From NCBI RefSeq assembly GCF_031082295.1, contig NZ_JAVHLD010000029.1, positions 1 to 38,303 on the forward strand: a DNA stretch of 38,303 nucleotides, given 5' to 3'. Made by a program: the position numbers and the translations under genes. Positions 1-20,638 of the stretch are shown here, piece by piece. The notes under the pieces were generated by a model. That model worked only from the letters and a program-made list of their open reading frames with translations. It did no database searches and was not told where the DNA came from. This DNA is from Humidesulfovibrio sp. (GTDB lineage Bacteria; Desulfobacterota; Desulfovibrionia; Desulfovibrionales; Desulfovibrionaceae). The number at the start of each line of letters is the position of its first letter. Position 1 is the stretch's first letter.

Positions 1-35
1 ACCGCCCCGCACTCCGCCGGGAACCAATGGGGTGT

Positions 36-58
36 CCAGAGGGCCTCAGGCCCTTTGG
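36..58. repeat. Intergenic inverted repeat of the CCAGAGGGCC type
   Basis: AGGGCC at 40-45 pairs with GGCCCT at 49-54 around a TCA loop, and the flanking CCA (36-38) and TGG (56-58) extend the symmetry past one mismatch. A short T run follows on the plus strand, so it may also terminate a gene left of the window. A similar hairpin sits at 37529-37547. Such CCAGRGG-type repeats are, to my knowledge, common between genes in Desulfovibrionaceae. Bases 59-205 hold no gene I can support; a small hairpin GCCAG/CTGGC lies at 104-119, ahead of the recombinase. Confidence 0.45.
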
Positions 59-205
59 CGGGGAGCACAGAAGAATTATCTTACCCAAAGCGAAACAAAC
101 TTCGCCAGCAATTTCTGGCAATTGTCGCTTTTGGCGTCGTCAGGCACGGCCTGACCCCCAAAAAACTCCTGGCATCATGAAAAGACGAAGCCGCAGGATG
201 CTCTC

Positions 206-2962: not shown

Positions 2963-3573
2963 GATCCATCTCCTGTTGAGGTGAAAGGGATCATGATCTC
3001 CCAGAGTACTACGGAAAAGTCGACCCAGAGAATCTGATATTCGAGAGTCTCGAGTGGCTGAATTTCTTGATGGTTTTTCTCTTGAGCGACGACAGGAGTA
3101 AGATTTTTTTTGGGACGCCCCGGGCGATGACCAGCAGCCGGGCATGACGGTCCCACTCCTCCTTATCCTCAGCTAGACCATCGCAACGAACACGGTAGCA
3201 CGAGCACGACGTGCGGCAAGTCAACCCCTGACGGGGGCGGCTACGCCGCGCCTTGCCGCCCGTCGTTTGCTCGTGCAGCGCACCGCTATGGGGCGACGGT
3301 CGAAGATGCCTCGCCTCCGGCGGGGGCTCTGGTCATAGATTGTGTAGAGGTGGAGTACCCGCCCGTCTTGAAAGGGTGAGGGCATCTTCCACAGGGCATA
3401 TGAGCGTTGACCGTCAGCGGAGTACCCATGCGCTTGCGTCCAGTTCTGGACGGCTAGCCGACCCGTAAGCGAGTGCCTGTAAACATCTGAAGTCGATCAC
3501 TTTTTCCTGGGCTCCATTTGCGTTCTGTGCTATGGATCAATTTCCAAAACGCACAAACCAGCAAGGAGAAAAT
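2963..3573. other. Gene-poor 610-bp stretch with leader elements
   Basis: No gene I can defend. On the minus strand, upstream of the 299-aa gene, a TTGACT (3219-3224) could be a -35 box, but the -10 match is poor. A run of eight A residues (minus strand, about 3106-3113) separates two open frames that both look weakly protein-like, so a decayed or frameshifted short gene is possible. The plus strand between 3225 and 3330 is GC-rich with short hairpins. The stretch from 3480 to 3573 must hold the promoter of the Ser/Asp-rich gene, but I see no convincing boxes. Confidence 0.4.
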
Positions 3574-4029
3574 ATGGAAGGAATCATACTCTGCGGAGTC
3601 GTTCTCGCCGCCATCGTGTTCCTCCGGAGCCAGGATCAGGAAACCGGGACGGGCGCTTATGCGGCGGTTCGTAATGACTCGAACGACGACAGTGCCGCTG
3701 ACGCCTTCACCGCGACCAGCAGCACCTGTCTGTTTGAGCATTCGCCGTTTTCGAGCGACGACGACTGGCCGACCAACAGCGCGACGTACGACAGCACCAT
3801 ATCCTTCAGTTACGACTCGGATACGAGCCGGTGGACCGACCCTATGTACGCGTACGAGCCGGATAACATTTACCACGGCACGGTGATCGACCCAACTCAC
3901 CACGACGACGACTGGTCCAGCAGCACATCCAGCTTCGACGACTCATTCTCGTCGAGTAGCTCGGACGATAGCTGGTCGAGCAGCAGCTCTACCGACTCGC
4001 TCTCCTCTTGCAGCAGCTTCGACGACTAG
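3574..4029 (+). CDS. Small membrane-anchored Ser/Asp-rich low-complexity protein
   Basis: 151-residue protein of unknown function. I start it at the ATG at 3574, which has AAGGAG seven bases upstream. The N-terminus (about residues 3-17, GIILCGVVLAAIVFL) is a single hydrophobic segment, so the protein is likely anchored in or exported across the membrane. The rest is acidic, with several DDD runs. The last 45 residues are almost only Ser and Asp in repeats such as SSSSSDDSWSSSSSTDS. Low-complexity acidic tails of this type occur in secreted, calcium-binding or disordered proteins; no enzymatic motif is visible. It converges on the 3' end of the first large RNA and shares its bidirectional terminator. 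The second RNA has the same arrangement with an unrelated small gene. Confidence 0.75.
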   Translation: MEGIILCGVVLAAIVFLRSQDQETGTGAYAAVRNDSNDDSAADAFTATSSTCLFEHSPFSSDDDWPTNSATYDSTISFSYDSDTSRWTDPMYAYEPDNIYHGTVIDPTHHDDDWSSSTSSFDDSFSSSSSDDSWSSSSSTDSLSSCSSFDD

Positions 4030-4062
4030 CCGCAAAATAACCACGCCGTACCGAGACGGCAC

Positions 4063-4090
4063 AAAAATAGGGGGCCTTGCGGCCCCCTTT
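4063..4090. terminator. Bidirectional rho-independent terminator (gene 3574 / RNA copy 1)
   Basis: GGGGGCC at 4070-4076 pairs with GGCCCCC at 4081-4087 around a four-base loop. Read on the minus strand the loop is GCAA, a GNRA tetraloop, and the stem is followed by TATTTTTG, a good U tract. Read on the plus strand the loop is TTGC with only TTT after it. The minus-strand reading is therefore stronger, marking the 3' end of the large RNA. Confidence 0.8.
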
Positions 4091-5210
4091 CTCGTTCGAT
4101 GATCCATACTATTCGGAATCCTGCCTTGACCGACCTGGTCTCCTTTGCCCGGACGCATTTCCTCGTCCCGCCTGCCCTTCGCTTACAGTTCGGTAGCCAA
4201 CCGAATCTTGCCACGGATTGTTCGTCCGTGGTCGGGTGCAGGCGTTGCCATTGCTGGGGGTTACAATGAGACCTCTGTGTCCTGCACGCCAGGACGGCGC
4301 ACAGGGTACATCCTCGATTTCGCGGAAACGGCACTTTCCAAGCCAGCTGATAGCCAACTGATATCTTGTCAGTACGCCGTCGTGGGCTTTTACCCCACAT
4401 GCCGATATCATCCGCCTTAGGCGCTATCTGTGCTCATGTTTTCACCGCCAGGGCATTCTTCCTGGCATCTGCTTCTTTCGGCCCCCGAGGTGTCACAGCG
4501 GGGCGTTACTCCAAGGCTAGTGCATGAGTTTTAGCGATAGTTCCTCTTGTCCCCGTAGCGGTGCGGGTCGGGCTTTCGCCCTTGAACGCAGCTGCTCTAA
4601 CCGCATCGAGCTTATGCCGGGGGCCATCCGGTTTTCGCCTCGTGCGGTCGCTGCGTCCCTTTTCACGTCACGATCCAAGCCCGTGAGGGCGTAGGTGTCG
4701 TCCCGTGGCCCTGGGTACCAGGGCTTGCGGCATTCAACGAACGAAGATGAGATGGCGTTCTATGGCGCCGTGGAAACCAACGACAGCACGATGAAAGTTG
4801 TCCGCAATGAGGCCTTACACTTCATCGCACGTGAACTTGTGGACCCCGTACGCAGGAACGACACCATCGATTAGCCCTTGCGTGAGAACGTGCAGGCCAA
4901 GTTACAGGTGCAGGTTAAACCAAATCCTGCGCCAATACGGCTATCCGCCCGACAAACAGGAAAATAGACCTAGGCTGTGCTCGACTAGGCGGCGTTGCTG
5001 TCGAGTGAATGGGCGATGTGGGCATGTATGGTCCTTCCCGTCCGGTATGAGCATCATCTCTTGCCTCGTCCGACCGCGACGTGGCCCCCCCAAGGCACTT
5101 TATATCGCGCCGTCGGGCCTGACGACAAGCGCGCCCACCTATTCGTTAGGGTGTTCGCATAGATTCACTTCTCGCCCCCTATACAACGCTATCTCCTTCG
5201 GTTAAAGTTA
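4063..5210 (-). ncRNA. Candidate large structured RNA, copy 1
   Basis: No open frame here looks like protein, yet the segment is similar over at least 850 bases to 8278-9470, with base changes that preserve helices. Examples in plus-strand coordinates: TTCGGT/ACCGAA (4189-4194/4200-4205) against GCTGGT/ACCAGC in copy 2; CCACGGA/TCCGTGG (4211-4217/4225-4231); ACGGC/GCCGT (4328-4332/4376-4380) against GCAGC/GCTGC; CCCTGG/CCAGGG (4709-4714/4718-4723) against CCCTAG/CTAGGG. A GGGC-GAAA-GCCC hairpin (minus strand, 4570-4581) is identical in both. Minus strand is chosen because loops read as GNRA, G-U wobbles occur only that way, and the 3' terminator is best that way. The 3' end is about 4063. The 5' end is uncertain: similarity is clear to about 4950 and the next gene starts at 5264. 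I do not recognise the family; GOLLD- or ROOL-like giant RNAs are comparable only in size and complexity. Confidence 0.7.
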
Positions 5211-5263
5211 ATAAGAATCCTTCATTGTCTAGCGCATGTTGACATTCTCAGGAGGTCTCACCC

Positions 5264-7399
5264 ATGCTTTCTGCCTTCCGCTCCCTGCCCATCCGCACCA
5301 AGCTGCTTGTGCTCATCGTGGTGCCGTTGTCCGCACTGCTGTTCTTCGCCATCCTCGCGATCCAGTCAAAGCGGGTCACCGTCACGGCTATGGACAACGT
5401 TGCTGAGCTCGCCTCACTCTCGGTGGACATCGGCAATGCCGCCCACGAGCTGCAAAAAGAGCGCGGGCTGTCCTCCGGGTATCTGGCCAGCAAGGGCGAA
5501 AAGTTTGGCCCGGAGCTGGCCGCGCAGCGCGGTGAGTCCGACAAGGTCGTTGAAACTTTGCGCAAGCACATCAAGGCCTTCCCTGTCGTCCGCTTCGCCC
5601 CGGAGCTCAAGCAGGCCATGGATAAGGGGGCCGCTGGCATGGAGGCCGTTTCCGGCAAACGCAGGGAGGTGGATACCAAGCCCCTGAAGCCCGCAGAGGC
5701 CATCGCCTATTACTCGGCCACCATTGCTGCCCTGCTTGACATTAACGCTTCCATTCTGCGCACCAGTGCGGATACCGAGGTTCTGAAGGCCATTGCCGCG
5801 TACGACGCCCTGCTGTGGGCCAAAGAATACGCGGGCCGAGAGCGCGCAACCCTGAACGGAGCCTTTGCACAGAACACGTTCCCGGCTGACCTGTTCAAGG
5901 GTTGGATCACCGTCCTATCCGCCCAGCAGGAGCGCCTGGCCGGATACCGCGCCTTCGCCTCGGAGGAGCAAACCACCTTCTACGACCAGAAGGTTTCCGG
6001 CCCGTTGGTGGAGCAGGTGGAACAGATGCGCAGGCTGGCGCTGGACAACGCCAGGGCAGAGGCCCTGGGGGGAGACGCCCCGGCCTGGTTCAAGGCATCC
6101 ACCGGTCGCATCGAACAGATGCGCGAAGTGGAGGCGCGCCTCGCCATAGACCTTATGGCGCTGACCGCCCGGCGCGGGGCGGAGGCGCGCTTTGCCATGT
6201 ACCTGTACATCACCATGAGCCTTGGCGCGGCCTTCGTCACCCTTGCCGTAGGCTTAATTGTGGTGCGGGCCATCAACACGCCGCTGGGCAGCGCAGTCGC
6301 CTTCGCGCAGGCGATCAGCTCAGGCAATCTGGATCACCCGCTGGATGTTCGGCAAAAGGATGAAATCGGCGTGCTGTGCGCCTCCATGACCATGATGGTT
6401 ACCAACCTCAAGGCGAAGATCGCCGAGGCCAAGGAGCAGACCGAACTGGCGGCCCGCGAGACGGAAGCCGCGCGCTTGGCCCAGGCCGAGGCCGACGAGG
6501 CCCGCGCCCAGGCGGAACGCGCCCGGCGCGAGGGCATGTTGCAGGCCTCCAGCCGCATTGAAGGCGTTGTGCACAAGCTCACACTGGCCTCAGAGCAGAT
6601 CGCCGCACAGGTGGAGCAGTCCAGCAAGGGGGCCGTTGTCCAGCGTGACCGCGTGACGGAGACGGCCACGGCCATGGAAGAGATGAACGCCACGGTGCTG
6701 GAGGTGGCGCAGAACGCCGGGCACGCCTCGGAAAGCTCCCACCGCGCCACGGAGATGGCCCAGGAGGGCGCCTCCACCGTGCGCAAGATGGTGCAAACCA
6801 TTGCCGAGGTGCGCTCCCAGGCTCTTGGCATGAAGGAAAGCATGGAAGTGCTGGGCAAAAGCGCTGGAGGCATCGGGCAGGTCATGGGCGTAATCAACGA
6901 CATCGCCGACCAGACCAACCTGCTGGCGCTCAACGCCGCCATAGAGGCCGCGCGCGCGGGCGATGCCGGGCGCGGCTTCGCCGTTGTGGCCGATGAGGTG
7001 CGTAAGCTGGCCGAGAAGACCATGGCCGCCACCCGCGAGGTGTCCGACGCCATCCGGGGCATTCAGGAGGCCACCACCCTGAACGCCAAGAGCGTAGAGC
7101 GCACCGTGGGCACCATAGAGGAGGCCAATGTCCTTGCGGACGATTCCGGCAAGTCGCTGGCGCACATAGTGGACATGGTGGAACAGTCCAACGACCAGGT
7201 GCGCGCCATCGCAGCGGCTGCGGAAGAGCAATCCGCCGCCAGCGAGGAGATCAACCGCTCGCTGACAGACATCAACGCCATTTCAGCCGAGACGGCGGAC
7301 GGCATGCGTAGCTCCGCCCGGGCCGTGGCGGAACTTTCCGACCAGGCGGAGGATCTTGGACGACTCGTCGCCGAGATGGCCGCCGAGGGACGCGGATAG
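5264..7399 (+). CDS. Methyl-accepting chemotaxis protein with NIT sensor domain
   Basis: 711-residue transmembrane chemoreceptor that would signal through CheW/CheA. TM1 is at about residues 12-36. The periplasmic region (about 37-310) carries the [11 protein letters not shown] signature of the NIT (nitrate/nitrite sensing) domain. TM2 is at about 312-338, followed by a HAMP domain. A long Ala/Glu coiled coil leads to the cytoplasmic signalling domain, whose hairpin tip ([18 protein letters not shown], about 547-565) is intact, with methylation-type [10 protein letters not shown] near 650. There is no C-terminal NWETF-like CheR-docking pentapeptide. The start has AGGAGGT eight bases upstream. 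The ligand is an inference from the domain name. The gene is divergent from RNA copy 1 and lies between the two RNA copies. Confidence 0.93.
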
Positions 7400-7486
7400 C
7401 AGCACCCACAACAGCGGAACGGAAAGGGCCGGAGGCGCGCAGTGGCGTCTCTGGCCCTTGTGTTTGCTCAGGGGGCCGTAGGCTAT

Positions 7487-7760
7487 GCACGGAGGCGAGG
7501 AGGCGTCGACCTCCCGCTTGAGGTCCGCCACCTGAGCGAGCCACTTGCTGGTCTGGACAGTCAGTTTGCGGATAGCCGTGGTGGTTTCCTGCATGCTGTT
7601 GGTCGTCTGCGTGTCGATGCCGTTTCTCTGCTCAACGGCCTAGTTGGTCTCCTTGCTCGCGGCGGGCTGTTCCTCTGCGTCGGTGGTGGTGCCTCGCACC
7701 TACCGGGCCGTGCTCTGGCTCATCTTGACGATCTCGCCCAAGGCTTGGCTGGATACACCG
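7487..7760 (-). pseudogene. Decayed C-terminal fragment of a second chemoreceptor
   Basis: One minus-strand frame reads, in order, GVSSQALGEIVKMSQSTAR, stop, VRGTTTDAEEQPAASKETN, stop, AVEQRNGIDTQTTNSMQETTTAIRKL. This is the end of a typical MCP signalling domain ([17 protein letters not shown]-type) with two in-frame TAG stops and no N-terminal part. The tail then runs through QVADLKREV into random sequence. It lies just downstream of the intact receptor but on the opposite strand, and differs in sequence from it, so it is a remnant of another receptor gene. The rest of that gene is absent; the 159-aa gene begins where it stops. Confidence 0.75.
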
Positions 7761-7784
7761 CAAGCCTCACAAGGAGCAGTAAAG

Positions 7785-8264
7785 ATGATACAGAAGGGCG
7801 ATGTGTACATGTTGTCCGCTTTGGACAACAGCGGGTTCGAGGTCTGCCTCGGCGTGTTTGCTTCAAATGAGGAGTGCATGGATATCTGCGAGCTCACCAT
7901 GCGTGAGGAAGCGGCTAAAGTGTTGAGCCCGGGTTTTGTCAAACTGATCAAAAGCACAGATGGCAAGGCAATGAAACTCTGGGGCAAATCGTGCTTCGTG
8001 CCGGCGGTCATCGTGCTCTGGATCTATGTCACGAAAAACCACCCGGTTTATGGCAGACGCGGTTTCTGTCCTACTGCCAAGGAGGTCTACGAGGACGCAG
8101 CTGAAGCGATTAAGGCGCGCGATGAATGGCTGGCAGAGCCTGGCGTGGATTCCGTCGACATGGTGACTGTGCCGCTCTACAAGCATATCGCGCCGGGTGA
8201 GGATAATAATCATCTGCAGGACATCCTGCGCCAGCTTCGAGACGATCCAAACGAATGGTCGTAA
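7785..8264 (+). CDS. Unrecognised protein, 159 aa, partner of RNA copy 2
   Basis: Start at the ATG at 7785, with AAGGAG about ten bases upstream. The product (MIQKGDVYMLSALDN...) is soluble-looking overall, with one hydrophobic stretch at about residues 71-83 (CFVPAVIVLWIYV) that may be a buried strand or a membrane segment, and an Asp/Glu-rich helical C-terminal half. I see no catalytic motif and do not recognise the family. It ends 16 bases before the terminator that also ends RNA copy 2 from the other side, repeating the small gene/terminator/RNA layout at 3574-5210. Its sequence is unrelated to the Ser/Asp-rich protein of that first unit. The reading frame and composition are convincing for real coding. 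Confidence 0.75.
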   Translation: MIQKGDVYMLSALDNSGFEVCLGVFASNEECMDICELTMREEAAKVLSPGFVKLIKSTDGKAMKLWGKSCFVPAVIVLWIYVTKNHPVYGRRGFCPTAKEVYEDAAEAIKARDEWLAEPGVDSVDMVTVPLYKHIAPGEDNNHLQDILRQLRDDPNEWS

Positions 8265-8277
8265 CATGCACACAACG

Positions 8278-8305
8278 AGAAAGGGGGCCTTTCGGCCCCC
8301 TTTTC
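8278..8305. terminator. Bidirectional terminator (gene 7785 / RNA copy 2)
   Basis: AAAGGGGGCC at 8280-8289 pairs with GGCCCCCTTT at 8294-8303 around TTTC on the plus strand, which is GAAA on the minus strand. T runs flank both sides. The hairpin and the adjoining TCGTTYGATGATCCAT motif match those at 4070-4106 by RNA copy 1. Confidence 0.85.
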
Positions 8306-9470
8306 GTTTGATGATCCATGATTCGGAATCACTGCCAAGACCGACCTGGTCTCCTTCGCCTCGGCGCATTTTGGCGCCGCGTCTGTCCTTCGCTTACACG
8401 CTGGTAGCCAACCAGCAATTGCCCCAAACTATTTACCTGGGGTCGGACGCAGGCGTTGCCCTTCCGGGAGGTTACTACGAGACCTCTGTGTCCTGCTGAC
8501 TTGGGTAGTCGACAGGTTTCATCCCTGATTCAACGGACGCAGCACTTTCAAGCGAACGGTTTGAGAACCGATACGCTTGAAGTACGCTGCTGTGAGCTTC
8601 TGCCTCACATGTCGCTATTCGCTTTAGGTGCCTTCTGTGCCCGAGCCTTCACGTCTGGGGCATTGCTCCCAGAATGCGCTCCTTTCAACTTCCGAGGTGT
8701 CGCAGCAAAGTGTTACTACGGCGTTATCTCTCGGGTTTTAAACGAAGGTTCCTCTCGTCACCATTGCGAACCGGGTCGGGCTTTCGCCCTTTTCCGAAGC
8801 TGCTCCAACTGCATCGTGCTTATCTCCAGGAGCCACCTGGTTTCGTCACGCGCAGCCGCTCCGTCCCTAACGCGTCACGGCCCATGCTCATAGAGCGAAG
8901 GTACCGTCCCGCGACCCTAGTTTCTAGGGCATACGACATCCCGCCTATCCAGGCGCACCAACTCTTGGGAAGCATGAACTCAACGACACTTCACACCTTC
9001 CGCTAACGCAAAAGTAGCTTGTGGCGCTGGTTCCCGAACCGTACAGGCGCGTTTCCGTCGCATACGGCTCTCCGGTTGCGAGCAAACTTGATGAGACCGT
9101 CGTTGGCTAGACGACGGTTACTGGTTGGCTACCAGAAGTTTGCTCTCGGTCAAAACGGCAGGGTTACGATTCCGATGGCATGGCGAAGACGAGCGCCTTG
9201 GTTTTGGAGCGCACGTCTCCTGATCTATTTCCTCCTTCATGTACGGGTTCACGCACCCTTCTGCGGCTCGTGGTGACGTCACGGCGGGCCGTGCTGGTTT
9301 GGCGGCCAGCTTCAAGCGATGCGGGTCTGCGTCCATCATACCACCTCTGGCCAGACGCTGCGCAAGGGCAGTCGGCGCGAAAGGCTCGAAGACAGTCCAC
9401 CTCAACAATGAAGCCGTTTTCATATGTAATTATTGTACGTTGCATGACATCGAATGGACTAACCACATCA
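8278..9470 (-). ncRNA. Candidate large structured RNA, copy 2
   Basis: Diverged homologue of the stretch at 4063-5210, again without a credible protein frame. Matching helices (plus coordinates) are GCTGGT/ACCAGC at 8400-8416, CCCCAGG/TTTGGGG read on the minus strand at 8422-8442 with two G-U pairs, GCAGC/GCTGC at 8539-8590, GGGC-GAAA-GCCC (minus) at 8778-8789, and CCCTAG/CTAGGG at 8915-8929. The conserved block ATACGGCTCTCCG (9062-9074) matches 4935-4947. Near the RNA 5' end a ten-base stem (9080-9089 with 9136-9145) closes a three-way junction holding two hairpins (9097-9117 and 9121-9135). Both of these carry AGCCA in their minus-strand loops, complementary to the TGGCU loop of the 3' hairpin at 8406-8410. 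The 3' end is at about 8278; the 5' end is guessed between 9150 and 9500. Confidence 0.7.
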
Positions 9471-9603
9471 CAGCGAGCCATGGCAGGGCGAAAAATATTT
9501 TGGGTGCCCCCCACATTTCACATTGACGGATTTCTCTGGCGCGACCAGACGTGATTTCATGGCCCCTCTCTCCGCAACCTTCAACCAGTATACGGAGGTA
9601 TAC

Positions 9604-9843
9604 ATGCCCATTCTCAAGAAGTCGCCAAAGGCCGAGGCTCAGCTCAACGTCAAGATTAGCGCCCAGACACACGCCCGGTATCTGGCAGTCAAGGAGGCAT
9701 GCCGCCAGAAGAGCTGGGAGTTTACGCTCCAGCCGGAGTTCGAAACGTGGCTGAACGTACAGCTCGCCGCGGCGGAAAAGGAGCTTGCCGCTGCCGACAA
9801 GACCGAGGCTAAGTCGGCTACCCAGGCGGACGCGAGCGCGTAG
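9604..9843 (+). CDS. Small unrecognised protein, 79 aa
   Basis: Starts at the ATG at 9604 with a strong CGGAGGT eight bases upstream; a longer frame from 9523 lacks this signal. The product is highly charged: a short beta-like segment (AQLNVKIS) is followed by helices, ending in an Ala/Glu/Lys tail. The QLNVKI strand followed by two helices recalls ribbon-helix-helix or relaxosome accessory proteins, but I cannot assign it. It is the first gene of a compact three-gene plus-strand operon (9604-11318) probably belonging to the mobile element. It is divergent from RNA copy 2. Confidence 0.7.
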   Translation: MPILKKSPKAEAQLNVKISAQTHARYLAVKEACRQKSWEFTLQPEFETWLNVQLAAAEKELAAADKTEAKSATQADASA

Positions 9844-9845
9844 CG

Positions 9846-10898
9846 GTGGGCATCGTCCGGGAACCTCATCGGCCAGGGCCGGGTGACGTTGCGCTTGTTC
9901 GCAGAGCGCAGCGCTCCCTTGCCCTGGCCGGGCGCCACCATGATCTGATGCGGTACCTCGAACGTGACAGCTTTCAGACCGTCGCCGGGGCACTGGTCGA
10001 GCGCTACATGCCGCGCTCGACGAAGAAGCAGCTTGAGATAGCCGACGTGTTTCGCGAGCTCTACGCCACCTGGCTTGTCCTGGCGCCAATCGCCAACAGG
10101 GCCCAGGGGTATTGGCGGCCCTGGTGGTCGCCGGGCATCATGACCAGCTGGATGCGTATCCAGTCCAACCGCTTCCATCGCTTCTGGCTCGGGGCCGTCC
10201 CCTACGATTGGGCTACCGCGCAGGTGGCCTCTGGTGCGGCGGCGCACATCACCGACGAGGCGTTCATCGCCCACGCGCAGGGCCTGCTTGACCATGCGAC
10301 GGGGGACACGCTGCGCGCCAGCTTCGCCCGATACGTCCTCGGCAGCTTGGTCTGGCGGCACGCGTCCGAGGCTGTGTTGCCTGTCGCCCGCGAATACCAC
10401 GCCGGTATGTTGTGGTCAGAAGACGGCTGCTGGCTCATGGCCGCGAAACCGTTCGAGGAGAACGGCGCAGTGTGGTGCGATCTGCGCGAGCGTCCGGTGG
10501 ATATCATGCATTGGTCGGCACACGTAGCCGACGGCTTGCTGCACATCAAGATGAATGAAGCAGCGGTGCAGCGGTTCAAAGAGAGCGTGCGGGTGGCGCT
10601 GGCATCGGACGCCTTGCCGGAGCACAAACTCCGCCACATCAACGCCACCGCGCGTAGCTTCCATCATTTTGCGCGCTACGCGTTCGATGCCCGGCAGCAG
10701 GCGCAAGAGCTTGAGGCATGGGTATGGCGGCGCGCTTCACGGCACATCGTGCAGAATACGCCTGCATTAGCCCAGCGGTACTTCAACCTCCGGCTGGCCC
10801 AGTGGGACACCCGGCTGCACTTTGAACGAAAGTCGTACCTGCTTGACCGGGATGTCTCCGAGGAACAGTGGCTATATCTGTGGAATCCGCGGCGCTAG
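9846..10898 (+). CDS. Unrecognised protein, about 350 aa, accessory operon
   Basis: The frame opens with GTG at 9846, two bases after the stop of the 79-aa gene, suggesting translational coupling; the next in-frame ATG is at 9950, so the start is uncertain. The protein is rich in Trp, Arg and aromatic residues (YWRPWWSPGIMTSWMRIQSNRFHRFW), mostly helical, and has no transmembrane segment or known catalytic signature that I can see. The composition is convincing for coding. It sits between the 79-aa gene and the 134-aa gene. Function unknown; an element-encoded helper is possible. Confidence 0.7.
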   Translation: MGIVREPHRPGPGDVALVRRAQRSLALAGRHHDLMRYLERDSFQTVAGALVERYMPRSTKKQLEIADVFRELYATWLVLAPIANRAQGYWRPWWSPGIMTSWMRIQSNRFHRFWLGAVPYDWATAQVASGAAAHITDEAFIAHAQGLLDHATGDTLRASFARYVLGSLVWRHASEAVLPVAREYHAGMLWSEDGCWLMAAKPFEENGAVWCDLRERPVDIMHWSAHVADGLLHIKMNEAAVQRFKESVRVALASDALPEHKLRHINATARSFHHFARYAFDARQQAQELEAWVWRRASRHIVQNTPALAQRYFNLRLAQWDTRLHFERKSYLLDRDVSEEQWLYLWNPRR

Positions 10899-10913
10899 AC
10901 GGAGGGTACGACC

Positions 10914-11318
10914 ATGAGTCTGAATTACGACAAAGATGGCTTCAAACTGTCTATCACTGCCGGAGTGGCGGACGAAGCTAAAGGCAAACGCCGGTGGACG
11001 CGGGTGTCGGCGAGCCTCATGGGATTTCCCTGCTCCGACCTTGAGGCGCTGGCGTCCCTCAAGGCATGCCTCGACTGCTTCCGCCGGGGGCAGATTGTGA
11101 AAGCCGAGCCACAGCTGCTGCGTGGCACGGGTGAAGATGGCGTGCTGTTCGCTCTGCGGCAGAAAGACAAAGTGCAGTATCTGCACGTGCAGCGCGTGGC
11201 CGATGGCCGCCTAGTCACCGAGGCGTACCTCGCTCATCTCGACGTCGCCCGGCTTGAGGTTGTTGTCGGCAAGGCGCTCCAGTTTCTTGCTCCTGCAACT
11301 GTCTGGGGGCCGGAGTAG
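10914..11318 (+). CDS. Unrecognised protein, 134 aa, last gene of the accessory operon
   Basis: ATG at 10914 has GGAGGG nine bases upstream and lies 15 bases after the preceding stop. The product begins MSLNYDKDGFKLSI and looks like a small alpha/beta protein of alternating strands with no Cys-rich or membrane region. The middle (LEALASLKACLDCFRRGQI) is a likely helix. No family recognised. It is transcribed with the two genes upstream, so the three probably act together. Confidence 0.7.
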   Translation: MSLNYDKDGFKLSITAGVADEAKGKRRWTRVSASLMGFPCSDLEALASLKACLDCFRRGQIVKAEPQLLRGTGEDGVLFALRQKDKVQYLHVQRVADGRLVTEAYLAHLDVARLEVVVGKALQFLAPATVWGPE

Positions 11319-11699
11319 TAAAACAAGCGAAGCGGCAGGGGCGTTCGCCAGGGATCGACCATCAGCCTCAAACTCATTTCGCGGCTGCGGCCTGTCTCGA
11401 CCGAGAAGATTGGCCCGCCCCTGCGCACGCTCCGTGCCTGGCGGAAAAAGTGCCGTTTCGATCCCAACAAGGCAGGGCTGCTTGTGAAAGTCGGAAAGCT
11501 CATGTCCTCCGAGTGGAGGAAAGCCATTCCGTGCTTCGCCTGGCACAGCCGCGCGTTTGCAGGCTTTGCAGCAGTGATTCGCCCCCGCAAAATATCTTTC
11601 AATTTTCTGCAGAAAGGCCTCTTTCTGCCCTGGACTTCAGCTCTTGCGCGATGGTTTCATTCAATCACGGGCCCAGATCCGAACAGAGGAGGAAAACGA
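11319..11699. other. Intergenic stretch with an uncertain open frame
   Basis: A plus-strand frame stays open from 11322 to 11855, with a first possible start GTG at 11484 that has no good ribosome site. The translated part looks basic and only partly protein-like. I would not annotate a gene upstream of 11700 without homologues. No promoter was recognised. Confidence 0.35.
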
Positions 11700-11855
11700 A
11701 TGATCAGACGATTGGTCGCATCTGCGACGCGCTTCAAAGCTGCGTTGGCGAAGCGCTTGTTCGCGCGGCGTCTCGTGCTCCGCCGCGAAACCAACTTTCT
11801 CCACTCGTCCTTGGCGTATGCCAAGATCACTGTGGAGAAGCCGCGAATCCGGTGA
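11700..11855 (+). CDS. Very basic small protein, 51 aa
   Basis: ATG at 11700 follows GAGGAGG with an eight-base gap, the best ribosome site in the area, and opens a 51-residue frame. Thirteen residues are Arg and several more are Lys (for example MIRRLVASATRF, RLFARRLVLRR), with scattered hydrophobics, so it could be an amphipathic nucleic-acid- or membrane-binding peptide. The same frame continues upstream, so a longer product from the GTG at 11484 cannot be excluded. It is followed by about 140 bases with hairpins and then a strong terminator. Confidence 0.5.
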   Translation: MIRRLVASATRFKAALAKRLFARRLVLRRETNFLHSSLAYAKITVEKPRIR

Positions 11856-11880
11856 CCACCGGCAGCGCGGCACAACGTAT

Positions 11881-12022
11881 GTGAGCCCTGGCTCACCGGC
11901 AGGCCGTAAGGCCCACCATCGCCTCGTCGGCAATCCCAGCCCTTGCAACTGGATTCACGGCAGAACGGGGCGCAACTGTAGTCTCCCACCCCACCATAAG
12001 GCGGCCCGAAAGGGCCGCCTTT
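11881..12022 (+). terminator. Hairpin-rich 3' region ending in a strong terminator
   Basis: GTGAGCC/GGCTCAC (11881-11896) is a tight seven-pair hairpin. The terminator proper is AAGGCGGCCC (11998-12007), loop GAAA, GGGCCGCCTT (12012-12021), then T. The GAAA loop on the plus strand argues that it ends the 51-aa gene transcript. It may also stop the convergent exbD transcript, whose stop is at 12050. I saw a faint resemblance to riboswitch-like pieces here but not a full consensus. Confidence 0.7.
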
Positions 12023-15137: not shown

Positions 15138-18100
15138 GCTCTCACTTGGTGCTGCGCTGTGGCGATGCGCATGCAGGCGTCGAGGATGGCGTCGATGACC
15201 GCTGGCGGAAGCACCAGTCCCTCGTCTCCATCGCCCGCGTCGAAAAACCAGTCGTCCATGCGCTGGAGCATGCTGTTCTTCACGTCTTCGTTGCTCGTCC
15301 AGTTTACCACGTTGAGTTCCTGGACGATGGCGTGCACGTTGAGCGCGGCCTCGACGCAGAACATCTCGACCTTCGCCGCCGGCTCTTGCGAGGAGCTTTC
15401 CTGGAAGTGCTGGCGCACCAGTTCGAGAATGCGCCCGTAATACGCCCGGGCGTCGTCCTCCGCGCGCAGACGTTCGGGGATGCCATCCACCACGCGATCT
15501 CGTACAGCCACCATCAGCTTTTTGACTTCCTTGAGGTACTCCGAGTCCTTGAGCCGGCCCTGCCGGAACGCGTCGATGGCCGACTTCAGCAGCTCGGAAA
15601 ACTTCCGGTAGAACGCTGGATCCTCTTCCATCTTCTCCGTGATGGTCAGCATGGTGCGGTGGGCAATGGCGTCAGCCTTGGCCCCGTCGCCATGAACACG
15701 TTCCACCTCACGCGCAAACCGCTCCTGGTCGAAGATGTTGACCGGCTCCGTGATCAGCTCGACATCGACCACGCCCACATGGGTGTTCACGATCTTCTGG
15801 ATGCGTGCCTCGTACTCTCCATAGTCCACCGCCTCCGCGTAGCGCAGCCGGACCGCCCGGCGCAGCCGCTCGAAAAACAGCAGGTCCCGGCGGTAGCGCT
15901 CCTGCAACGCGGCGTCCGTCTGCTCCAGAAACGTCGCCGAGGAAAAGCTCAAGCCCACGCACCGCGCAAAGGCCGACAGCCGCTCGTAGAACCGCTGGCG
16001 CTCCTCGACGTCCGCGAGATGACGCTCGTAGGCCTCCTCGTCGCGCCTGTTGGACACGGTCTTGAAGACATCGAGCAGGGCGGCGTGCAGGCCCGGCAGG
16101 CGCACGGTCGCCTCGGAGACGTTGGCGACGATGCCCTGGAGCTGCTCCGGGTCGTAGTTCTCGGCGGCGAATTCCTCCATGGCCTTGGCGAGGTGGTCCA
16201 GCACGCCGACATAGTCCAGGATGTAGCCGTACTCCTTCCCCTCGTGCAGCCGGTTCACGCGGGCGATGGCCTGCAGCAGGGTATGGTCCTTCAGCGGCCG
16301 CGCGAGGTACAGCACCGTGTTGCGCGGCTCGTCGAAACCCGTGAGCAGCTTGTGCACCACTATGAGGATTTCCAGCTCCTCCCCGGACTTGAAGGCGTTG
16401 ATGACCTGCTTGTTGTACGCTTCCTCCGTGCGGTAGCGCTCCATCTTCCTGCGCCAGAACTCTTGGACCAGCGTGGCGTCCTCGGCCCCATCGCCCTCCG
16501 GCTCGTCTCCTTTCTCCTCCGCACGTGTCTGCGGACCGGAGATGAGCACTTCGGAGGTCACCAGGCCGTAGCTGTCGAGCGCCTGCTTGTAGCGGATGGC
16601 CGCGGCCTTGGACGGCGCCACAAGCTGGGCCTTGAAGCCCGTGCCCTGCCAGTTCTGCTCAAAGTGCAGGCTCACGTCCATTGCGACTTGGTTGATGAAG
16701 TTGCCGATGCGCGGGATGTGCCCTGCGCTGGCGAACTTGCGTTTGAGGTCGGCGCGCTGCTCCTGGGTCAGGCCGCGCGTGATGAGCTCGAAGGCCTGGT
16801 CCAGCGGCGTTTCGCTCGGCGCAAGGTTCACGTGCCGACCCTCGTAGAGCAGCGGCACCACGGCCTGGTCGGCCACGGCGTCCTTGATGGTATAGGAATC
16901 GATGATTCCGCCGAACTGTCGGACCACGCTGCCGTCCTTCTTGTGCACCGGCGTGCCGGTGAAGCCGATGAAGCACGCGCGCGGCAGCGCGGCGCGCATC
17001 CAGGCATGCAACTTGCGGAAGTTGGAGCGGTGCGCCTCGTCCACCAGCACGAAGATGTTGGCGGCGTCGAGCTTGAGCTTGGCCTTGGTGGCGGCGTCCT
17101 CGAACTTGTGGAGCACGGTGGTAACGATGGGCTTGCCGCCCTGCTCCAGCTTGCGCGCTAGGTCGCGGCCGGAGTCCGCCTGCTCCAGGTGCAGGCCGCA
17201 ACTGCGGAATGTGCCGTAGATCTGGTCGTCCAGGTCCGTGCGGTCCGTCACCAGCACGATGCGGTAGTCGCCGATGTCCGAAGCGAGCGCGATGCGCCGG
17301 GCCAGCATGACCATGGACAGAGACTTGCCGCTGCCCTGGGTGTGCCAGACCACGCCGCCGGGCCGCGTGCCATCGGGCCGCACGGCCCGGATGCGCTCCA
17401 TCATCCTGCGCAGGGCGAAGAACTGCTGGTAGCGGGCAACCTTGCGCTGGCCAGCGTCGAACACCGTGCAGTGGTACACCAGCTCCAGCAGCCGGGCGGG
17501 CCGGCACAGGCTCCATAGGGCCGCGTCCTGCGCCGTTGGGGTGCGCTCCCCGGCCTCCCACTCTTCGATGTAGGGCCGCCAGTGCGTGTAGGGTTTCTCG
17601 AACAGGGCCTCACGCTCCGCCACGGGCAACGGCGTATTGATGAGCACGCGCAACGACTCGTCCAGGCGCTCCGGCGGCAGGTCCTTCTCCTTCCACACGC
17701 TCCAGAACTTGGCCGGGGTGCCGGTGCAACCGTACCGGGCCTCGTTCTTGGTCAGGGCCAGCAGCAGCTGGGCGCAGGCGTAGAGGCTCGGGGCCTGGTC
17801 CTCACGCTGCTTGAACAGGTGGTCGGCGATGGCGGCCTTGAGCGCGTCCTTGTCGTCCGGGCGCTTGCACTCGATGATCACGAAGGGGATGCCGTTGACG
17901 AAGAGCACGATGTCCGGCTCCAGCACGTCGGCCGAGGCGGTCTTGGCCACGGCGTACTCGCTGGTGACGTGGTACACGTTGGCCTCGGGCCGCTCCCAGT
18001 CCACGTAGCGCATGGTGAAGCTCTTGGAGTCGCCGCCGACGAGCTGCTTGAAGCTCTTGCCGTAGCAGAGGATGTCGTAGACGGCGCTGTTGGCCTGCAG

Positions 18101-18392: not shown

Positions 18393-19634
18393 TTAGGGAA
18401 CCCGGACCTTGCCTGTGAGCAACTGCTGCATAAGCCCGCGCTTCTGGCGCTTCAGGGCGTCCAGCTCCGCGCGGTGCAGGGCGATTTCGCGGTCGGCGTC
18501 TTCGAGCACTTCCACGATGGCGCGCTGCTCGCGAATGGAGGGAAGCGGGATGCAGATTTCCGAGAAGTGGCTCCAGCGCAGGCTCCCACGCCGGTCCACG
18601 GAGGCGTTCGTGTGCTTTTGGAACAACTGCCTGTACCACTCCGTTTTCAGCAGCCGGAACAGGAAGGAGTCGTCAACCTGCTCCGTGGTCTGAAAGACGG
18701 TGTAGATGGGACTGATGAGCGCCAAATCGTAGAGGTCCTGGTAGCCGATGGAGCCTTCCTCGATGTGGTTGGTCGCGTAGGCGAACGTTCCCCGCGGCAC
18801 CAGTTTGTAGGCGCTGGTCTCCTCGCTGAAGACTCGTTTGCCGAAGTAGTCCAGCGAGCTGACGAGCCCCTGGTGCTTGGTGCAGGACAACACCGGCAGA
18901 TCCGCCGCATCGGAGTTCCGGCCGGTGAGCTCGCGGCAGACCTTGCCGATGCGGACATAGGCCCAGTCCTTCGGCAAAGGATACGGATGCGTCGGCACGG
19001 TTCCTGGCTGCTTTACGAACCCCGGCAGCCGCGCCTTGCCCGTCAGCAGCCGCTGGGCCAGCGCTTGGCGGCGGCGTTGCTTGGCGGCGATGAGCTGCTC
19101 ACAAAGCATGATAGCCTCGTCACCGGACGAAAGGACTGCCGCTATGGCTCGCTGCTCCACGAGGCTCTCGGGGATTACGAGGACAACACTTGAATATGCT
19201 CCAACATTCAAATGCCGGATTGCGAGTCCACCCTCCATGGCGCTAACCTGCCGCTTAACGAGCGAAGAATTGTTGAGATTGCAGAGTAATTCAGGAATGA
19301 TGCGCCCTGTGTTGGGCCGAGCAAAAACAATATCAATGCAGTTAGAACCCGCATGGGCCTTATCGACAACGCACGAGATGCCGGGCGCACCAGACCGCAC
19401 GAGCAGGACATCTCCCTCTTTGAGGATGGACTTTTTGTTCGTCTTGTGCCCTGACTCCGAAATATACACCCAATCCGAGTCGTCGATTTTTCCTTCTTTG
19501 ATGTTGGCGGACCTAAAGGCCTTGATGCCTTTTCCAGGAGCGACATAGTACTGCGTGGGCTTAACGACGATCCCAACACGAATTTCTGTGCAGAGCTCGT
19601 CCAGGGGGAACTCTTTCCAGCCTGCCGGAATCAT
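18393..19634 (-). CDS. hsdS: Type I restriction specificity subunit HsdS (two target domains)
   Basis: 413-residue DNA recognition subunit. Two target-recognition domains are each followed by a helical spacer ending in a similar phrase: RRRQALAQRLLTGKARLPGF near residue 200 and KRQKRGLMQQLLTGKVRVP at the C-terminus. This is the internal repeat typical of HsdS. Each half-site is read by one domain, and the complex binds HsdM through the spacers. The start overlaps the rhuM stop (ATGA). A second, half-length S-like gene lies upstream of hsdM, giving this locus two specificity proteins. The recognition sequence cannot be read from the protein. Confidence 0.93.
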   Translation of the reverse strand: MIPAGWKEFPLDELCTEIRVGIVVKPTQYYVAPGKGIKAFRSANIKEGKIDDSDWVYISESGHKTNKKSILKEGDVLLVRSGAPGISCVVDKAHAGSNCIDIVFARPNTGRIIPELLCNLNNSSLVKRQVSAMEGGLAIRHLNVGAYSSVVLVIPESLVEQRAIAAVLSSGDEAIMLCEQLIAAKQRRRQALAQRLLTGKARLPGFVKQPGTVPTHPYPLPKDWAYVRIGKVCRELTGRNSDAADLPVLSCTKHQGLVSSLDYFGKRVFSEETSAYKLVPRGTFAYATNHIEEGSIGYQDLYDLALISPIYTVFQTTEQVDDSFLFRLLKTEWYRQLFQKHTNASVDRRGSLRWSHFSEICIPLPSIREQRAIVEVLEDADREIALHRAELDALKRQKRGLMQQLLTGKVRVP

Positions 19635-20638
19635 TTCCCTCTCCCCAGCCGCTTCACGGCCCTGTCGAAGTCGCCCTCCAGGCTGGCCTCATCCGTGCGG
19701 CGGCGCTCCTCGAAGCGTTCGTACTGCCGCTCGGCCCTGGCCTTGGCCAGCACGGCGGAGATGCTGCCCGCATTGTCCAGCACTTCCCGCTCGTTGAAGC
19801 GCAGGAAAGCGTTGAGCCGCTCTATCCAGTCCTTCATGTGCATGGCCACATGGCGCGTGGCCTGGTCTTCGGCGAAGTCCAGGTACATGGTGACGATGCG
19901 GTTCAGCCCCCGCAGTTCCTCCTCGTTCAGGTAGTTCTTGGCCACGTGCACGTCGGCCTTGCGCACCTTGGCCCCCTTCCAGGAGGTGAGGCCCATGTTG
20001 GGTGCGTCGGCGTCCGCGCGGCGGGCCACAATCTCGGCGGCGGTCTGCCCGGTGATGGCCCAGTGCAGCTTGTTCTGAACCGTGGCGAAGAACTCCTGGC
20101 TGATGGGCGCGTGAGCGTCGTAGTCCACGGAGGTGGCGTAGATGTCGGTGATTTTCTGGTAGAAGCGCTTCTCCGAGCTCCGTATGTCGCGGATGCGCTC
20201 AAGCAGCTCGTCGAAGTAGTCCGCGCCGAAGGGTGTAGCCACGGCCTTCAGCCGGGCGTCGTCCATGGTGAAGCCCTTGACCATGTATTCGCGCAACCGC
20301 TCCGTGGCCCAACGACGGAACTGCGTGCCCCGGTACGAGCGCACCCGGTAGCCCACAGCGATGAACACTTCAAGGTTGTAGAGCTTCGTTTTGTAACGTT
20401 TTCCGTCGGTTGCAGTTAGCAAATAGTATTTGTGAACTGCGGCTTCACCCAACTCGCCCTCTTTGAAGATATTGCTCAAATGGTGGCTGATGTTCTGGGG
20501 CGTCACTTGGTAAAGCTCTGCCATGTGCTTTTGCGAAAGCCAGACCGTGCCGTCTTCCAGGCGCACGTCGATGCGCGTCTGGCCATCCTCGGTCTGGTAG
20601 AGCAGAATCTCGGACTGCGTGGCGATCTCGTCGGCCAT
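19631..20638 (-). CDS. rhuM: RhuM-family protein within the restriction operon
   Basis: 335-residue protein of the RhuM family. The N-terminus has the winged-helix block VRLEDGTVWLSQKHMAELYQ followed by TPQNISHHLSNIF, suggesting DNA binding. The central part carries the family phrases AVGYRVRSYRGTQFRRWAT and GFTMDDARL. RhuM proteins often sit between hsdM and hsdS of type I systems, as here; their role is unknown (an old link to virulence gave the name). The gene begins two bases after the hsdM stop and overlaps hsdS by ATGA, so it is co-translated with them. No catalytic motif is visible. Confidence 0.9.
   Translation of the reverse strand: MADEIATQSEILLYQTEDGQTRIDVRLEDGTVWLSQKHMAELYQVTPQNISHHLSNIFKEGELGEAAVHKYYLLTATDGKRYKTKLYNLEVFIAVGYRVRSYRGTQFRRWATERLREYMVKGFTMDDARLKAVATPFGADYFDELLERIRDIRSSEKRFYQKITDIYATSVDYDAHAPISQEFFATVQNKLHWAITGQTAAEIVARRADADAPNMGLTSWKGAKVRKADVHVAKNYLNEEELRGLNRIVTMYLDFAEDQATRHVAMHMKDWIERLNAFLRFNEREVLDNAGSISAVLAKARAERQYERFEERRRTDEASLEGDFDRAVKRLGRGK

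Follow-up and report, generated by a model that had tools for sequence, protein, structure and literature searches.

Circularly permuted (CP) group II ribozymes (T-large RNA), in which domains 5 and 6 (D5 and D6) come before domain 1 (D1) and the domains that follow it, were described by Roth, Weinberg, Vanderschuren, Murdock and Breaker in 2021 (PMC8637638). According to the main text of that paper, the known CP RNAs have a GGGCG 5' splice site, an NU 3' splice site and a linker of 15-86 nt, and in vitro the RNAs of five species release the linker in circular form and yield a branched RNA. The same text reports no intron-protein open reading frame (ORF) in or near the CP RNAs; AcpG is frequently associated with them, and some are found without it. 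Among the matches listed in the open PMC literature, it is the one paper that deals specifically with CP group II ribozymes found in nature. The present analysis concerns an RNA of this kind, and the divergent gene cassette A-B-C beside it, in a Humidesulfovibrio genome of the family Desulfovibrionaceae. The window, which is the whole stretch of DNA that was analysed, comprises the 38,303 nt of contig NZ_JAVHLD010000029.1 (assembly GCF_031082295.1), and it holds one intact copy of the RNA (copy 2) and one truncated copy (copy 1).

The first-pass annotation of the window, which was made from the sequence alone, had singled out two segments, 4063-5210 and 8278-9470, as two diverged copies of a large structured RNA, read on the plus strand, belonging to no known family and not being a complete group II intron. 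The existence of two diverged copies is borne out (blastn, 71.7% identity over 669 nt, E 2e-89), and so is the large structured RNA backed by compensatory changes, since covariation is found in the alignment of its relatives. The homology is real, but in copy 1 it is confined to positions 4062-4739. The sole Rfam match of the whole window at the gathering score is RF00029, the group II intron D5/D6, at 9072-8974 of the minus strand with 46.2 bits. The plus-strand reading was therefore given up, and the remaining analysis follows from turning the strand. Both structured stretches are minus-strand group II ribozymes. In copy 2 (about 9145-8283) D5 and D6 precede D1-D4, which is the CP order. The intact copies thus do belong to a known family, as they carry the group II D5/D6 above the Rfam gathering score in the published D5-D6-D1 arrangement; that copy 2 is not a complete group II intron is correct for the canonical order of domains and incorrect for the permuted one. 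Rfam labels only the D5/D6 piece of the permuted RNA. The AGC triad of D5 (columns A5, G6 and C7) and the branch-point A (A94) are invariant in the 12-row alignment A1. The features of both copies and of the cassette are collected in Table 1.

Table 1. Features of the permuted RNA, its gene cassette and the truncated copy (window coordinates)
Feature	Coordinates	Strand	Evidence or remark
Leader block UGAGGUGGA	9396..9404	minus	one of only two invariant leader stretches of at least 6 nt; 12/12 aligned rows
GAGGUG in leader block	9403-9398	minus	exact complement of putative EBS1; present in L095 leader too
Stem GAGCAAAC/GUUUGCUC enclosing two hairpins, loops UAGCCA	9080..9145	minus	position of P1/P2 of CP RNAs
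Domain 5, AGC triad and GAAA loop	9036..9072	minus	RF00029, 46.2 bits; alignment A1
Domain 6, candidate branch-point A at 8980 (bulged), ends CAU	8974..9035	minus	RF00029 alignment; A1
Predicted 3' splice site	8974/8973	minus
Linker, 15 nt, between reversed splice sites; predicted RNA circle	8959..8973	minus	3' end is candidate IBS1; by analogy with the CP RNAs of PMC8637638, main text
Domain 1	8524..8958	minus	starts GUGCG (8958-8954)
D1 base helix, CCUGG with UCAGG	8953-8949 with 8528-8524	minus	consensus fold; CCUGG directly 3' of GUGCG
Putative EBS1, CACCUC	8699-8694	minus	invariant in 13/13 rows of alignment A4
Structured D2-D4 position	8301..8523	minus	consensus fold and held-out test; assigned by position as one block
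Hairpin with loop UUGGCUA	8416-8400 (loop 8411-8405)	minus	within D2-D4 position
Conserved GC-rich 3' hairpin, terminator-like	8283..8300	minus	probable RNA end; alignment
Gene A, 79 aa	9604..9843	plus	first of divergent cassette
Gene B, 350 aa, maturase-like	9846..10898	plus	residues about 205-305 (10458-10760) match end of reverse transcriptase domain and domain X (profile comparison)
Gene C, 134 aa	10914..11318	plus	function unknown
Copy 1: D1-D4 region and 3' hairpin (4087-4070)	4062..4739	minus	lacks D5, D6, linker, GUGCG and cassette A-B-C
Decayed hsdR C-terminus at copy 1 breakpoint	4740..5001	plus	PF11867, two pieces searched apart

As far as the main text of Roth et al. describes the CP RNAs, copy 2 resembles them in the domain order D5-D6-D1-D4, the predicted reversed internal splice sites, the AGC triad and the candidate branch A, in having no intron-protein ORF inside, and in the extra hairpins before D5, the loop of which is complementary to a loop of the 3' domain. 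It differs from them in its predicted GUGCG 5' splice site in place of GGGCG and in a linker which, with this site, is 14-21 nt long against the reported 15-86 (both unless the GGGACG discussed below is the real site), and in possessing its own cassette A-B-C with a maturase-like gene, AcpG not being found. At the 3' splice site the RNA ends with CAU, the CP consensus being NU. The set of Roth et al., about 290 sequences, may contain relatives of the copy 2 RNA; the main text of the paper holds no word starting with Desulfo-, nor Shine or 16S. The sequences of the published kind that were compared are those of pTT8 and three further Thermus plasmids only, and the pTT8 RNA was not matched by sequence profile. 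With canonical bacterial group II introns that carry an intron-encoded protein the system shares the D5/D6 sequence, the GUGCG...AU ends and a maturase-type domain in the partner protein, and it departs from them in the permuted domain order, in a protein encoded outside the RNA and divergently, and in the missing reverse transcriptase (RT) motif. In the window's genome the strongest AcpG match (E 0.009, 51 aa) is antisense to a 612-aa histidine kinase-like ORF and was discarded. A relationship of AcpG to B or to maturases was likewise discarded, since no profile match was found.

The structure of the RNA is strongly conserved. The RNAalifold consensus of 11 intact copies comprises 252 pairs, 111 of which show two-sided change. 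The four helices which the first-pass annotation had reported as covarying are all paired in this fold, three of them when checked pair by pair (6/6, 5/5 and 7/7) and the fourth (CCCUAG/CUAGGG) by eye. As a guard against circularity, the fold was predicted from 5 copies and scored on 7 further ones, among them copy 1 and the copy from genome G294. In these held-out rows 1565 of the 1684 pair cells are canonical (92.9%), and partners slid by 1-3 columns give 34-41%; two-sided changes number 283 in 117 pairs, compared with 16-25 pairs for the slid partners. The G294 row alone has 190 canonical cells out of 234 (81%). The copy 2-type RNA is under strong structural constraint.

The window's genome (G000, the window being on contig 21) has three copies with D5-D6 besides the truncated copy 1, and blastn matched the RNA in 8 of 15 Humidesulfovibrio genomes. 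A covariance model reaching from D5 to the start of D1 (R1), searched over 348 Desulfovibrionales genomes, gave 16 matches of at least 94 bits in 10 genomes, namely eight Humidesulfovibrio genomes, G153, which belongs to the same family, and G294, which comes from a different one. D5-D6 lies upstream of D1 in all 16 copies, that of G153 being cut by the contig end inside D1. The permuted order and the GUGCG...AU ends are kept in the 12 aligned copies and in L095, the G294 locus, and RF00029 scored above its gathering threshold in 13/13 relative loci scanned. Thirteen other genomes in the R1 list have matches of at most 46 bits; among the ten such loci taken (L066-L075) four have a nearby YADD ORF and none has a D1-D4 match, so the weaker loci look like ordinary introns. 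A second model, of D1 only (R2), was run over 347 genomes with Infernal's stricter filters and returned these 10 genomes again, plus two more with marginal scores of 21.6 and 18.7 bits; under these filters no canonical-order intron with this D1 was found among the 347 genomes. The plasmid collection searched for the RNA gave no match, nor did the viral contigs searched with a D1 pattern. Over the genome contigs the same pattern marked 17 stretches, 11 of which are loci already found; the other six, having the pattern alone, nhmmer scores of at most 5.9 bits and no Rfam hit, were rejected. Isolated matches of 32-36 nt to the 3' hairpin only, with the rest of the RNA absent, occur at positions 14490-14521 of contig C23 of the window's genome (L005) and in G235 (L018).

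The RNA has a constant genetic partner. Gene B is divergently upstream of it, with A and C alongside, in all 15 R1-copy loci counted (the window and L041-L054; L055, a tail match only, was left out). A profile of B, searched over the same 348 genomes, recovered the 10 genomes that carry the RNA, each with as many copies of B as of the RNA, every one of the 16 genes being adjacent to an RNA and divergent from it; beyond these it picked up a fragment at a contig edge in G021 and a match of 22 residues in G013. In G294 gene B is present with 27% identity, while tblastn found neither A nor C there, and a 107-aa ORF in a different orientation resembles A by eye. In a phylum-wide sample of 395 genomes B was found in its own genus, together with two weak 47-residue matches, and plasmid and phage collections gave no match.

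Several comparisons relate gene B to maturases. GIIM (PF08388) is the Pfam family matched by most B members, 7 of the 15 at a loose threshold, with a best E of 0.0045, and in a six-frame GIIM search of 59 genomes B was the best hit in four of the eight genomes that carry it (G000, with its C37 and C3 copies, G004, G007 and G011). An hhalign comparison of the B profile with one built from the C-terminal regions of five Desulfovibrionales intron proteins matched residues 206-305 with E 3.3e-5 and a score of 41.0; 60 column shuffles of either side (120 in all) reached at most 23.4, the reversed profile 15.1 and a recombinase control 18.9. A hidden Markov model (HMM) of the five intron proteins, run over 1430 ORFs from 16 loci, placed 14 of the 15 B proteins at ranks 1-14 and the fifteenth at rank 16, ranks that are not independent, the B proteins being close relatives. 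The [YF]xDD motif is absent from B in all 15 rows of alignment A6; residues 1-204 compared with the five full intron proteins gave E 0.12, with no RT resemblance, and in the window's genome there is no RVT_1 match and no GIIM match above the cut-off. B is a probable maturase-like protein without reverse transcriptase and a probable partner of the CP ribozyme. Organellar maturases such as MatK and nMAT have retained domain X with the RT part lost or inactive; B differs in being bacterial and in that it would serve a permuted ribozyme, and the likeness seen here is for domain X. A sequence search of the PDB with B had a best E of 0.23. NCBIfam and PHROGs gave nothing for A, B and C of the window, and PADLOC nothing for B and C; its weak match for gene A (E 0.0075) was not credited. 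For A and C no known family was found.

The splice sites look canonical (GUGCG/AU). GUGCG stands at the start of D1 in all 12 rows of A1, and if it is used the linker measures 14-16 nt in these rows and 21 nt in L095. The candidate for exon-binding site 1 (EBS1) is the hairpin loop CACC within GACACCUCG, and CACCUC is invariant in 13/13 rows; its proposed partner, intron-binding site 1 (IBS1), comprises the six bases before GUGCG. The only leader stretches of at least 6 nt that are invariant in 12/12 rows are UGAGGUGGA and CUAGCCA, and GAGGUG is the sole invariant leader 6-mer that is complementary to any of the 30 invariant 6-mers of the core, namely CACCUC. Because the GAGGUGGA motif had guided the trimming of the leader alignment, the presence of this motif is independent evidence and its position is not. 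UAGCCA is complementary to the UUGGCUA loop of a 3' hairpin in the window and in most copies, a possible counterpart of the P2-D2 loop-loop pseudoknot of the CP RNAs, and this partner loop was not found in L095. UAGCCA/UGGCUA is nearly invariant and hence without covariation, and GAGGUG/CACCUC is likewise without it. A strict terminator scan called no terminators, the 3' hairpin at 8283-8300 included. In the Thermus plasmids (L019 and L143-L145), inspected by eye, the four bases before GGGCG in L143 and L145 (CAUC and GGUU) find their match in a loop that precedes UCGUAG (GAUG and AACC). This loop is an EBS1 candidate placed like the CACCUCG of the new family; pTT8 and L144 are not a full fit, so that two of the four fit.

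Taken together, copy 2 is quite probably an intact CP group II ribozyme, transcribed leftward, with the product of gene B as its RT-less maturase. In the predicted first step, A8980 in D6 attacks the phosphate immediately 5' of GUGCG (8959/8958); the 3' OH released in this way would then attack the 3' splice site (8974/8973). A circle of 15 nt would be released, and a 2'-5' branch would connect D5-D6 with D1-D4. The main text of PMC8637638 reports this branch and circle reaction in vitro for other CP RNAs. The gene B protein, as a maturase lacking reverse transcription, would stabilise the permuted fold. The predicted product is a branched ribonucleoprotein (RNP), the free EBS1 (CACCUC) of which could attack RNA or DNA with GAGGUG-like sites. 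Copy 1, being truncated, would not be able to react alone.

Several observations weigh against this account. In the Rfam search which the first-pass annotation had proposed, RF00029 was matched, but D1-D4 matched no D1-D4 model at E up to 5, so that these domains are identified by where they lie, by GUGCG, by the helix at the base of D1 and by the candidate EBS1. The EBS1-IBS1 pairing, which is the best result of a search over all positions, is never complete (5/6 in 10 rows and 4/6 in 2 of the 12 rows), and the bases before GGGACG found better partners in the same search (0.88 against 0.80 over six bases). The single-protein GIIM scores of B lie under Pfam's cut-off; GIIM does not match at all in 8 of the 15 B members, that of the window included, nor in the G294 protein, and the six-frame search did not list B in G001, G005, G008 and G012. 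The window's B, 14th in the intron-protein HMM search, scores only 9.6 bits (E 0.05), and three gene A proteins rank 15 (L046), 17 and 18 in it; the bit scores of the A proteins are 9.2 (L046), 6.8 (L044) and 6.1 (L049). The AlphaFold model of B has a pLDDT (predicted local distance difference test) of 41.5 and was not used for a fold search, and two B genes (L045 and L051) lack about the first 67 residues.

The position of the 5' splice site is the point at which an ordinary member of the group of Roth et al. would be told apart. In such an RNA the 5' splice site would be the GGGACG at 8910, and the circle would be 63 nt long and contain the conserved hairpin CCCUAGAAACUAGGG. GGGACG is present in 12/12 rows of A1 and in copy 1, and it resembles GGGCG (L095 has GGGGCA); the hairpin is like the linker stem-loop of known CP RNAs, and the Thermus CP linkers hold a hairpin before GGGCG. 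The partners found for the GGGACG site reach 0.88 when six positions are counted (columns 758 and 221) and 0.96 when five are (column 231), against 0.80 for GUGCG. On the other hand, GUGCG is the canonical 5' end and has the D1-closing helix directly 3' of it in the consensus fold, L095 keeps GUGCG but not GGGACG, and neither a sequence profile nor R1 gave a match to pTT8. This possibility is considered unlikely.

It is about equally doubtful that gene B is tied to the RNA in some other way, as a regulator or a mobility factor, with a likeness to maturases that is due to chance or very ancient, and that the RNA reacts unaided. The weakness of the single-sequence matches of B and their absence in 8 of 15 members would suit this explanation, as would the five CP RNAs that react in vitro free of protein according to the main text of Roth et al. 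(PMC8637638). Against it, the 120 shuffle controls, the genome-wide GIIM search and the ORF rank agree on the maturase likeness of B, and the neighbour of the gene is a group II ribozyme.

The preferred reading, a CP ribozyme with its maturase, can be carried further, to a separate CP ribozyme lineage which, with its own RT-less maturase, forms an RNA-guided RNP with a frozen guide acting on GAGGUG sites. This extension is speculative and taken as quite unlikely. It comes from the observation that CACCUC is invariant in 13 rows while the linker IBS1 drifts, and that GAGGUG is found in the leader, so that the guide would act on GAGGUG sites. CACCUC is the anti-Shine-Dalgarno core; in this assembly no 16S end was located. 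If the frozen-guide reading is true, the targets would be the leader of the RNA itself, as a means of self-control, and the ribosome-binding sites of other messages, which would be in keeping with the defence genes beside several copies.

Copy 1 has a different history. Its homology ends at 4739, within the start of D1, and it has no 5' splice site. Beyond this point stands the remnant of an HsdR C-terminus, with PF11867 matches of E 1.7e-9 (4740-4871) and 0.01 (4876-5001) that are consecutive in the profile and frame-shifted. The block ATACGGCTATCCG/ATACGGCTCTCCG, which had been taken as shared by the two copies, turns out to be a coincidence, for in copy 2 it is domain 5 and in copy 1 it stems from the YGYPPD codons of the HsdR remnant. 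The window's own HsdR is of a different kind and shows no match to this remnant. Copy 1 has its closest counterpart within the genome in the C3 copy. Its sequence and that of the C3 copy in this genome are 89% identical, and a Ser/Asp-rich ORF is a neighbour common to both. Changes specific to copy 1 fall on columns invariant in eight other copies in 10 of 28 cases, compared with 3 of 28 for its sister; a cruder count, in which copy 1 departs from 8 of 277 invariant columns and the intact copies from 0-10, shows no decay. Copy 1 is a truncated, probably decaying copy. A conserved D5-less form acting in trans was considered for it and set aside because the 10/28 versus 3/28 pattern favours decay, the numbers being small and the cruder count showing none. 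A large serine recombinase gene (206-2455) and the 165-aa Ser/Asp-rich ORF (3532-4029) are near copy 1, and relatives of both are near the full copy of L042/L050.

The truncation of copy 1 and its excess of changes on conserved columns would be expected if both copies were functionless rearranged relics of a canonical group II intron, and for copy 1 this explanation holds. Extended to both copies it is highly improbable: copy 2 and 15 others keep the D5-D6-D1 order and the neighbour B across two families, the helices are kept in the 12 copies tested, and the covariation contradicts it for the intact copies. Helices look alike on both strands, which would suit a novel structured RNA encoded by the plus strand, but this reading has practically no chance: D5/D6, GUGCG and the 3' hairpin followed in several copies by a U-rich sequence are all on the minus strand.

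The RNA and the cassette, with the 3' hairpin at one end and the end of gene C at the other, behave as a single block. Of the roughly 14.8 kb of each locus, L044 and L046 have only 3829 nt in common, with 87.6% identity. The two flanks of L046 recur separately, one in L041 and one in L048, beside units that differ from its own. Inspection by eye revealed no target-site duplication. The RNA-cassette unit moves or recombines. The 3.8-kb block of RNA and cassette lies at L044:6190-10008 and L046:6193-10008, in different species with otherwise unrelated flanks.

The surroundings of the copies are varied. Type I restriction genes are near the copies in the window and L048; L054 has a type I methyltransferase gene and a Gabija pair (GajA and GajB) at L054:178-5680, within 10 kb of its copy. 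Serine recombinase genes are near the copies in the window, L042 and L051, and a TerB/SngA-like gene in L043. In L095 the region 4512-11925 contains a HipA-like gene (HipBA) with a small regulator-like ORF upstream, the permuted RNA, gene B and, by eye, the A-like ORF; the locus also has two integrase-like genes, one of them confirmed by Pfam, and it is probably an integrated element in another family. Within the type I system of the window a gene of the RhuM family (19631-20638) lies between hsdM and hsdS, and the tRNA-Leu(CAG) called by ARAGORN at 17151-17246 on the plus strand, inside the minus-strand hsdR, is probably a false call.

The RNA described here is of a known kind; what is new are the splice sites, the host range and above all the constant maturase-like partner. 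The permuted architecture is extended to the Desulfovibrionales, and the constant presence of gene B offers a genetic and biochemical handle on the role of CP RNAs. Organelles and the spliceosome suggest that a group II ribozyme and its protein can be kept as an RNP without mobility. The system in Humidesulfovibrio and its relatives could represent an instance of this in bacteria, with the ribozyme and its protein freed from mobility and retained as an RNP.

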